This document shows positions 34,785 through 37,379 of a stretch of DNA of 64,000 nt, in pieces. The notes beneath the pieces were generated by a model. The model was not told where the DNA came from, ran no database searches, and saw nothing but the letters and a program-made list of their open reading frames with translations. How positions within the stretch are numbered: position 1 is the stretch's first letter; the number at the start of each line of letters is the position of its first letter. The position numbers and the translations under genes are program-made. Origin of the DNA: Deltaproteobacteria bacterium (GTDB taxonomy: Bacteria; Bdellovibrionota; Bdellovibrionia; Bdellovibrionales; Bdellovibrionaceae). The stretch lies in assembly GCA_017302835.1 (NCBI GenBank), contig JAFLCC010000003.1:62001-126000 (forward strand). Direction: 5' to 3'.

Positions 34785-36596
34785 TTACTTTTTAGTATAA
34801 ACTTTGATGTCCACACGTCGATTAAGTGCACGCCCTGCATCCGTTTTATTCGTTGAGATAGGTCGGGCTTCGCCAAATCCAATGGCTGTAATTTGTTGAT
34901 CTCTCAGATCCAGATTATCTAGCAAAACGCCTTTAACGGTTTTGGCTCTTTTTTCACTTAACACTTGGTTGTATTGATCTTTACCAATGGAGTCGGTATG
35001 ACCTTCGATAATAATACTTCTAATATTCATATCAAAAAGTTGGGTAATAATTTTTTCAAGTTCTTTTTTAGAGCTATCAACTAAATTTGCTGAATCAAAA
35101 ACAAAGTTTAAATTTTGCAATCTTATGAGTTTGTCAGGTTTTGGGATTTCTTTCACCGTGATAAAAGAAGTGGCTTTCCTGCCTACTTGATCAACAACTT
35201 CAATGCTTACTTCCTGTGGAGATAAGGGCGCCACAAATAACCCTTGATCAGAAATTCTTCCTCCTCCATCTAGGATTCCGTAACGATAGGGTGGAGCTCC
35301 ACCAACTCCTCGGATAGGTAAACTTTGTCCTTCAAAAACTTCCGCCTTTGCTGGGCGTACGCCCAAATCTCCTGCAAATTCGCTTTGGGATTTGTAGGTC
35401 ACAACGGCTGTTGTTGTTAGACCTTGAGCATCTTTAAATTCAATCTCGCTCACCCCTGGAGAATCAGGTGCTAAAAAATCGCAATACTTACCAATAAATT
35501 CGCCGGATCCAGATAAGATTTCGCACTGATAAGGGGCTTTGCCTCCAATAAATTCAAAAGTGACTTGCTCACCCACGGTAACTGTGGAATCAGCAGGGAT
35601 TACTCTGAATCCAGAGCTGATAATGGATTTTTCTTTTTTACTGACGACAACTGGAGCTGCTTTAGCAGATTCAGGTTTCCAGTACCAAACGATCCCGGCA
35701 AAAACACGCCAAGCAGGAGATAAGGAGTCAACACCTGGTTCGACGGTGGCACCCCAATCGAAATTAGTATTTTTCCACCAGCGATGTTTCATCCCAAGAA
35801 TTAAATCCACAGAGGAGGCATCATTAGCTCTTATGTAGGGATCCTTTTGCAAAGGGTAACTAAATATCGTTTCAAATACCCATCGTGCTGTTTCAGAAAA
35901 CTCATTGGCGTAGCCATAGCTCAAGGTTAGCTGATCATCTAAGGGAAACATTCGTTGATTCAGTGGTCGTTCAGCGGGGGTGCGCAGGCGATAGCCAGCG
36001 TTGAGGCCATGGGCGGCCTTATCATTTCTCCATACATGGGATAACTCAAGATTGTAAATAGGCTGAGGACTCACTCCCGTGTAGGGGCTATCAACAAGGG
36101 AAGGAATATCTATGGATCCAATAAAAGCCCAACTTGGCAGCTCTGCATCGCCAAATGAATATTTAAATCCTGGTCTTAAAGAGTGGATACCCTTATCGAT
36201 ATTAATTTTTATATTTTCTTTCGTCTCTGAATTGTAATACCAAAGAAAAGGTGCCTGCAAATAAAGAGATAGTTTTTTTGAAAATCCATATCCTACAGAA
36301 AAATCATATTCAGCCAATTCATTCGCATAACTCATTTTTTCTTGCGTTGTCAGATCTTTAAAAACGAGTAAGTGGTCTTTAGCGAAGTTAAGATATTGAG
36401 ATAGAACAATGTAATCTTGATACATGGGTTTTGAGGAGTGAACTGTAATAAAATCTATATTGTCTGTATTGGGAACAAATGTTTGCATGTCTCCCAAAAC
36501 ATTTGCTTCCGTAGATAAAAAAGAGGAGAAAGAAAATAAAAACAAAATAACGAGGCTGAATCTTTTTGCTTGGTTTCGAATATAATTTTTAATCAT
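34785..36596 (-). CDS. OmpA-family outer membrane protein with extra beta domains
   Basis: 603 residues from the ATG that has AGGA six bases upstream; a longer open frame exists but lacks a site. Signal peptide RFSLVILFLFSFSSFLS, then a region (about 40-325) of alternating aromatic strands ending YWKPES, likely an outer-membrane barrel; two repeated Ig/bacterial-surface-like modules (about 345-425 and 430-485, each with VTVGEQVTFEFIGGKAPYQC or EVFEGQSLPIRGVGGAPPYR); and a carboxy OmpA peptidoglycan-binding domain (IIIEGHTDSIGKDQYNQVLS, then RALNRRVDIKVY). It probably links outer membrane and cell wall. Confidence 0.88.
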   Translation of the reverse strand: MIKNYIRNQAKRFSLVILFLFSFSSFLSTEANVLGDMQTFVPNTDNIDFITVHSSKPMYQDYIVLSQYLNFAKDHLLVFKDLTTQEKMSYANELAEYDFSVGYGFSKKLSLYLQAPFLWYYNSETKENIKINIDKGIHSLRPGFKYSFGDAELPSWAFIGSIDIPSLVDSPYTGVSPQPIYNLELSHVWRNDKAAHGLNAGYRLRTPAERPLNQRMFPLDDQLTLSYGYANEFSETARWVFETIFSYPLQKDPYIRANDASSVDLILGMKHRWWKNTNFDWGATVEPGVDSLSPAWRVFAGIVWYWKPESAKAAPVVVSKKEKSIISSGFRVIPADSTVTVGEQVTFEFIGGKAPYQCEILSGSGEFIGKYCDFLAPDSPGVSEIEFKDAQGLTTTAVVTYKSQSEFAGDLGVRPAKAEVFEGQSLPIRGVGGAPPYRYGILDGGGRISDQGLFVAPLSPQEVSIEVVDQVGRKATSFITVKEIPKPDKLIRLQNLNFVFDSANLVDSSKKELEKIITQLFDMNIRSIIIEGHTDSIGKDQYNQVLSEKRAKTVKGVLLDNLDLRDQQITAIGFGEARPISTNKTDAGRALNRRVDIKVYTKK

Positions 36597-36670
36597 AAAT
36601 TTTCCTATGGAAATACCCACCACATTAGAACCGTTATCATTATTATTTTCAACGAAAAATCTCATAATCA

Positions 36671-36681
36671 AAAAATTTAGC
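36671..36681 (+). repeat. 11-bp direct repeat flanking the element (left copy)
   Basis: AAAAATTTAGC, identical to 36803-36813 on the other side of the inverted-repeat element; interpreted as a target-site duplication. Confidence 0.75.
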
Positions 36682-36802
36682 AGTGGTTACGCATAGGACT
36701 CAACTTGTCGTTCTCGTCGGTCGGACTCCCTGCGACTTGGCTTTGCCAAGCCTCAGTCGTCTCCCTCCTGCGGCCTCGATTTGAGTCCTATGCGTAACCA
36801 CT
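36682..36802. mobile_element. MITE-like element with 22-bp perfect terminal inverted repeats
   Basis: A 121-base, GC-rich island in AT-rich surroundings. The first 22 bases (from AGTGGTTACGCATAGG) are exactly repeated inverted as the last 22 (to CCTATGCGTAACCACT). The element is flanked by an exact 11-base direct repeat, AAAAATTTAGC, at 36671-36681 and 36803-36813, the mark of a target-site duplication. A second hairpin CTTGGC-TTT-GCCAAG lies near the middle (36736-36750). No frame codes for a transposase, so movement would need help from elsewhere. It sits between the OmpA gene and pgpA, within both their upstream regions. Confidence 0.75.
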
Positions 36803-36813
36803 AAAAATTTAGC
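36803..36813 (+). repeat. 11-bp direct repeat flanking the element (right copy)
   Basis: AAAAATTTAGC, identical to 36671-36681. Both copies directly touch the ends of the inverted repeats. Confidence 0.75.
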
Positions 36814-36857: not shown

Positions 36858-37379
36858 ATGGATAAGAGAAACATCATGAATATGAAAGTTTTTGTTGATT
36901 ACACTTTAAGTCTTTTGGCTACTTGGTTTTATATTGGAAAAATAAAAAAAGCTCCCGGAACCTGGGCCACCTTGGCCGCCTTACCCCTAGCTTTAGTTCT
37001 TAACCTTCTTGGTCCACTTTTTTATATGACCTCTGTCTTTCTTCTTTTGCTTATAGGAATTGTTGCTGCAGATTTTTATGAAAAAAAGTCTTCGATTCAT
37101 GATAATTCTGAAATTGTGATTGATGAAGTTTTGGGTTACCTCATTACCATGATTTGGTTGCCGTCAACTTGGCAAGCTTACGTTATAGGTTTCATTTTAT
37201 TTAGAATATTGGATATTTTCAAACCCTTTCCAATTGGCTATCTGGATAGGAAAATTAAGGGAGGTATGGGAGTCATGATGGATGATATCGCAGCCGGAAT
37301 CATAGCAAATATCATTTTACAACAGGCTTATACGTACACGGCTATTTTAGGGTCACAGCTAATTCATGTTGCTTCATAA
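36858..37379 (+). CDS. pgpA: Phosphatidylglycerophosphatase A
   Basis: Membrane phosphatase that makes phosphatidylglycerol from its phosphate. 173 residues with about four membrane helices. Family motifs: KKAPGTWATLAALPLALVL, IHDNSEIVIDEVLGYLITM (acidic active-site residues) and the final GGMGVMMDDIAAGIIANI. An ATG six codons downstream (36876) is also possible as start. Its last 16 bases overlap the convergent PilZ gene. Confidence 0.92.
   Translation: MDKRNIMNMKVFVDYTLSLLATWFYIGKIKKAPGTWATLAALPLALVLNLLGPLFYMTSVFLLLLIGIVAADFYEKKSSIHDNSEIVIDEVLGYLITMIWLPSTWQAYVIGFILFRILDIFKPFPIGYLDRKIKGGMGVMMDDIAAGIIANIILQQAYTYTAILGSQLIHVAS

Follow-up and report, generated by a model that had tools for sequence, protein, structure and literature searches.

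The 121-bp element at positions 36682-36802 of the window (the whole 64-kb stretch of DNA analysed here) is non-autonomous and was inserted recently with duplication of its target; its multiple copies, their target duplications and the empty site in relatives show that it is mobile. Overall, the favoured explanation, with a probability of roughly 0.6, is that ISAs1 ends have come to sit on the conserved core of a REP-like family of 3'-end hairpins. The element has ISAs1 ends, a core common to copies with other ends, and paired arms, and most of its relatives lie in one orientation just behind stop codons. By analogy, the wider family would work like REP elements at gene 3' ends.

The window copy and its insertion site

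The features of the window element and its surroundings are as follows.

36671-36681, no strand: left copy of the 11-bp target duplication, AAAAATTTAGC, read from the sequence; one sister species has a single AAAATTTAGC in its corresponding intergenic region
36682-36703, plus strand: left arm of the outer stem, 22 bp, from inverted-repeat comparison and the match to an IS end
36704-36780, minus strand: core, ~75 nt, common to copies with other arms and to many phyla
36730-36756, minus strand: apical hairpin, where conservation of the core is highest; minus-strand sequence CTGAGGC...GTCGCAG
36781-36802, minus strand: right arm, perfect complement of the left arm, read from the sequence
36803-36813, no strand: right copy of the 11-bp target duplication, AAAAATTTAGC, read from the sequence
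34785-36671, minus strand: flanking OmpA-family gene, diverging from the element
36858-37379, plus strand: flanking pgpA-like gene, diverging from the element

A recheck of the sequence bears out the earlier note's description of 121 bases with perfect 22-bp ends and a central hairpin, flanked by exact 11-bp direct repeats and set between divergent OmpA-family and pgpA genes. The arms, of 22 nt each, are 100% complementary with 77 nt between them, the central hairpin lies at about 36734-36752, and the direct repeats adjoin the element without a gap on both sides. By our own arithmetic about 1e-6 perfect 22-bp inverted repeats less than 200 nt apart are expected in 64 kb, and the flush 11-bp direct repeat brings a further chance factor of about 2e-7, so that a chance origin of these repeats is excluded. 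The start given earlier for the OmpA reading frame is probably ~75 bp too early, the real start lying near 36596, since a signal peptide begins at an in-frame ATG there.

The whole-genome search proposed in the earlier note finds that the element is not single copy, with 38 matches to the element DNA and 27 by covariance model in the window genome (G000). Nor does it occur with the same flanks in all relatives, the finding that would have spoken against a mobile element: the ompA-pgpA intergenic region is without it in all five other species of the genus, and the sister species G001 has one single AAAATTTAGC at the corresponding place. Copies with window-type ends (F1) are distinguished here from copies with other ends (F2). 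Direct repeats of ~11 bp flank the F1 copies (score 3.85, vs 0.24 for mismatched flanks), some of them perfect, e.g. GCAACGAAAGA at L054, so the sibling copies with other 11-bp flanks that had been anticipated are present; F2 copies display no direct-repeat excess over mismatched flanks. A MITE-type mobile element making 11-bp duplications, as first proposed, is thus supported by multiple copies, by the target duplications of its siblings and by the empty site in relatives. The window copy has landed in a divergent promoter region, where it may have changed the expression of ompA and pgpA, and its perfect duplications are those expected of a young insertion.

Several incomplete copies also occur. 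Truncated copies in the same genome (L026, L027, L030, L023, L025, L028, L048, and L049) end near the hairpin apex, and these breaks could be due to cleavage by a hairpin nuclease, e.g. SbcCD. Another remnant, AGGAGTTACGCATATGACTCAACTCCT, 27 nt long and on the minus strand of L042 (about 1548-1574), lies between the similar 11-mers CTAAAAACTGC and CTAAAAAGTAC and is seemingly an F1 element that has lost its core.

Ends of the ISAs1 type

The outer 18 bp of the window left arm agree with the end of an ISAs1-family IS at 16 of 18 positions; across F1 arms 10-17 of 18 positions match, vs 5-7 of 18 in F2 arms. Searching relatives with the F1 end located a 1,279-bp IS in G008, a broken copy bounded on either side by AGGGGTTACGCATATGACGG, and close variants of the same ends on a 1,277-bp IS with a DDE transposase inside in G001. 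Terminal repeats AGGGGTTACGCATATGAC, or close variants, are common to the ~1.28-kb IS of both genomes. The G001 protein belongs to NCBIfam transpos_ISAs1 (NF033564; E 2.5e-113) and also matches PF13808 and PF01609. The parent is thus of the ISAs1 family and not of the IS4 type that had been suggested, a close guess nonetheless since both families use the DDE_Tnp_1 domain. A full IS sharing the ends, which the earlier note had proposed to look for, does exist, but only in these sister taxa: the window genome, a 99.98%-complete draft in 35 contigs, contains no relative of the G001 ISAs1 transposase. Judged by its ends, it is an ISAs1-type MITE, and an orphan one, as the ends match an IS in relatives and no such transposase is present in the window genome.

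Target duplication in ISAs1 elements is usually about 8-10 bp. It is 11 bp in the window copy and in L054, and the IS copies have a 7-bp partial repeat at best. The window element resembles ISAs1 IS and MITEs in its terminal repeats, its inverted ends and its short target duplications, and differs from them in the length of the duplication (11 bp), in the lack of a transposase in its own genome and in an interior that is a hairpin core found across phyla. This interior is not derived from the ISAs1 IS; the IS and the F1 element diverge after about 18 bp, and beyond that point F1 reads like F2. The MITE reading of the earlier note therefore holds for a mobile, target-duplicating element and is incomplete for the core, which is a conserved hairpin module independent of the IS ends.

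A common core with differing arms

In the window genome the core of F2 copies is the same, yet the outer arms that enclose it, GAGCGTGTTTGAAAAGTCTTAA, are quite unlike those of F1, and two F1 copies (L062 and L071) are directly adjoined by remnants of F2 arms. Because F1 parts from the IS after ~18 bp and from there reads like F2, F1 looks, on comparison of the sequences, like an F2-type element after replacement of its outer arms. A third arm type, CTAAAATTCCTAATAGGTCAAA, occurs with a diverged core at L073 (G000:C4:271594-271720). An F1 copy at L070 has next to it, about 15-55 nt upstream, a palindrome of F2 arms that lacks any core, CCTGTTTGAAAAGTCTTAACTTTTCAAACAGG; miniatures of this kind may have arisen by deletion.

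With a first covariance model (R1), 18 of the 60 relatives contain the family, among them members of other families of the order; some weak matches among these may be generic hairpins, and most of those inspected keep the core motif. A second model (R2, from a MAFFT alignment) retains only 10 pairs, with the arms misaligned, and served for match counts, not for structure. The core pattern, of about 20 informative bases, is present in at least 117 DNA stretches, mostly from Nitrospira, and also from Rokubacteria, Acidobacteriota, Gemmatimonadota, Myxococcota, and other Deltaproteobacteria. One finished Nitrospira genome alone gives 96 model matches. Three copies lie head-to-tail with 131-bp spacing in a finished Nitrospira genome (G060:C1:2715449-2715833). 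A search for an IS bearing the Nitrospira arm CAGGMTGYTSAAAA returned inverted pairs at element length only (one shorter) and none at IS length. An origin in phages, plasmids or viruses was rejected, as the phages, plasmids and viral contigs searched contain no match to the family. On one deltaproteobacterial contig a ZMP/ZTP riboswitch is located near a core copy (L116:742-826).

Placement at stop codons and conservation at orthologous sites

In most copies, read in the window + orientation, the left end lies a few nucleotides from the stop codon of the upstream gene on the same strand, both in the window genome and in other phyla, as judged from mechanical ORF calls. In the finished Nitrospira genome 15 of 30 copies have a stop codon no more than 15 nt from their left end, vs 6.8% of random intergenic sites (p 1.7e-10), and 3 of 30 have one at the other end. 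The host genes are full-length and are presumably housekeeping genes, e.g. ftsY, guaB, fliI, and purQ, the names being our own reading of the sequences. Their stops are enriched for TAG (8/13 vs 3/28; 19/41 vs 100/402), partly because the first bases of the element complete a stop, and this enrichment hints at some insertion preference besides selection. The window copy, between divergent genes, is not at a stop codon, and at L054, the other copy with perfect duplications, no long ORF ends at the left end.

Several further possibilities were considered and rejected. No fixed target motif was found ahead of the element, TAG stops alone being enriched there. An intrinsic terminator is not indicated, the copies read by eye having no T-run after the hairpin. 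Insertion biased by replication strand is not distinctive, with 70% of copies co-oriented vs 62% of genes.

Seven sets of Nitrospira genomes carry the element at the same host gene. Among these orthologous copies mean identity is 90% in the element, 82% in the upstream CDS and 55% in the downstream DNA, and unrelated Nitrospira copies are 43% identical. Some orthologous pairs differ by four to six compensated arm changes. Gene conversion between copies could contribute in part to this conservation.

These observations bear on the possibility that the element is nothing more than a MITE derived from ISAs1, with the core as filler and the arms matched through template switching in replication. 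The ISAs1 end match, the target duplications and the lack of an internal transposase are all consistent with such an origin, as are the arms identical in half of the F1 copies; the core, however, is joined to unrelated arms elsewhere in this genome and across many phyla, is better conserved than the adjoining coding DNA at orthologous sites, and is oriented on one side of stop codons, which transposition by symmetric ends cannot yield. We regard this explanation as unlikely.

Folding of the arms and core

The outer stem is mostly 20-23 bp and is perfectly or nearly perfectly paired despite its variable sequence. In 21 copies with 42 pairs, 97.3% of cells are paired, vs 75.9% when shuffled. In the same copies 27 pairs are changed on both sides, a count inflated by the kinship of the copies; sliding the pairs abolishes the signal. 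F1 arms differ by 2.0 mismatches within a copy vs 4.5 between copies, with none of 20,000 permutations as low. Either selection on the hairpin or repair that uses one arm as template for the other may account for the arm complementarity.

Of 107 copies, 100 form the more stable fold on the minus strand, with a mean difference of 8.8 kcal/mol, and the GGC/GYC pair of the core apical hairpin is G-U or G-C. These data raise the question whether the core is instead a small structured RNA of the minus strand, antisense or free, that has spread as a mobile RNA gene transcribed towards the 3' end of the host gene. Besides the more stable minus strand, the replacement of A-C by G-U at the hairpin base, the GNRA-type loops of L039, L041, and L073, and a probably related Geobacter family annotated as predicted short RNAs (PMC2700814) point in this direction. 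The curated covariance models of Rfam, however, give no match, and in tandem genes the minus strand lies within no obvious transcript. Such an RNA appears improbable, to about the same degree as a MITE with a filler core.

A folded single-strand DNA site, with a bottom-strand hairpin serving a recombinase or transposase as in attC or REP/RAYT systems, is the least probable of the explanations considered: the bottom strand is the more stable with DNA parameters too (92 vs 4), Y1 transposases are common in the order and cassette-attC arrays likewise have a fixed orientation after stop codons, but the copies are dispersed beside housekeeping genes (ftsY, guaB, and fliI, by our own reading), the two Y1 genes of the window genome are without the element around them, the replication-strand bias (70%) is near the gene bias (62%), and F1 copies, unlike Y1 transposition, make target duplications.

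The reading preferred here, of ISAs1 ends on a REP-like hairpin core, suggests the following course. A long rod-like hairpin placed right after a stop codon in fixed orientation would affect the 3' end of the upstream gene, the candidate actions being a pause of the terminating ribosome, protection of the mRNA end or processing by RNase III. Stop-codon placement would in turn keep the core and the arm pairing under selection. One branch in this lineage may then have swapped its outer arms for ISAs1 ends and so been mobilised by an ISAs1 transposase. For the window copy, in its divergent promoter region, the usual stop-codon role would not apply. A role at the mRNA 3' end agrees poorly with the antisense direction, relative to the host gene, of the better-folding strand.

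Relation to known families

Among the 24 predicted short RNA elements listed for the Geobacter metallireducens genome, which have GRCGTAGCGCTGCTACGCC as their central palindrome, one lies between dapAB and dapL and has a counterpart in G. sulfurreducens (PMC2700814, Figure S1). Compared by motif and not by alignment, GRCGTAGCGCTGCTACGCC fits the hairpin at the core apex, its R falling on the position that is G-U or G-C there; further points of likeness are that the Geobacter elements, about 24 in number, are scattered between genes and that one site is conserved between species (PMC2700814). The Geobacter family is presented as a supplementary alignment only, without arm covariation, stop-codon placement, spread over phyla or a link to an IS. 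As its motif fits the core, A/G position included, these elements probably belong to the same family, part of which has thus been seen before. A literature search with the core sequence gave no relevant match, and in the literature no account was found of the family's spread, arms, placement or IS link.

REPs have been reported next to gene ends, where they supply TAG stops (PMC3733652), and those within 15 nt of a stop codon have been reported to lower translation (PMC12306157). The present elements are like them in being dispersed extragenic palindromes at the 3' ends of upstream genes or between convergent genes, sometimes supplying TAG (PMC3733652, PMC12306157). The location next to gene 3' ends resembles that of REPs; the element is, however, ~120 bp (121 bp in the window) vs the 20-40 of GTAG/CGTC-tagged REPs, has no GTAG foot or any fixed tetranucleotide at its boundary, and in one branch carries ISAs1 ends. 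Y1 genes are present in 49 of 60 relatives, yet the two in the window genome have no adjoining element, and a RAYT/Y1 link was rejected. The element is not a REP by size, by foot motif or by RAYT link. Near one Y1 transposase gene, ~10-bp tandem repeats, CGCTAATCAC, were seen (L228:1689-1810).

Correia/NEMIS and ERIC elements are, to our knowledge, confined to other lineages, and we know of no arm exchange in them. By description they are alike in being MITE-like sequences of ~100-150 bp with inverted repeats, processable in mRNA (PMC10969869).

Beyond the window, the data can tentatively be read, at a little under even odds, as an unnamed family of ~120-nt hairpins across phyla that have a conserved core and exchangeable arms, are maintained in one orientation right at stop codons, act on gene 3' ends and can be captured by transposable elements that swap their ends onto the core. 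REPs account for most of what is known of dispersed palindromes near gene ends. If this reading is true, the elements would be a second such family, with another core, present in many phyla and traceable at orthologous genes, and would allow it to be asked whether stop-codon hairpins are selected and what effect they have. The hybrid with ISAs1 ends would display a route from hairpin to transposon, and the fixed orientation together with the compensated arms would lead to testable predictions.
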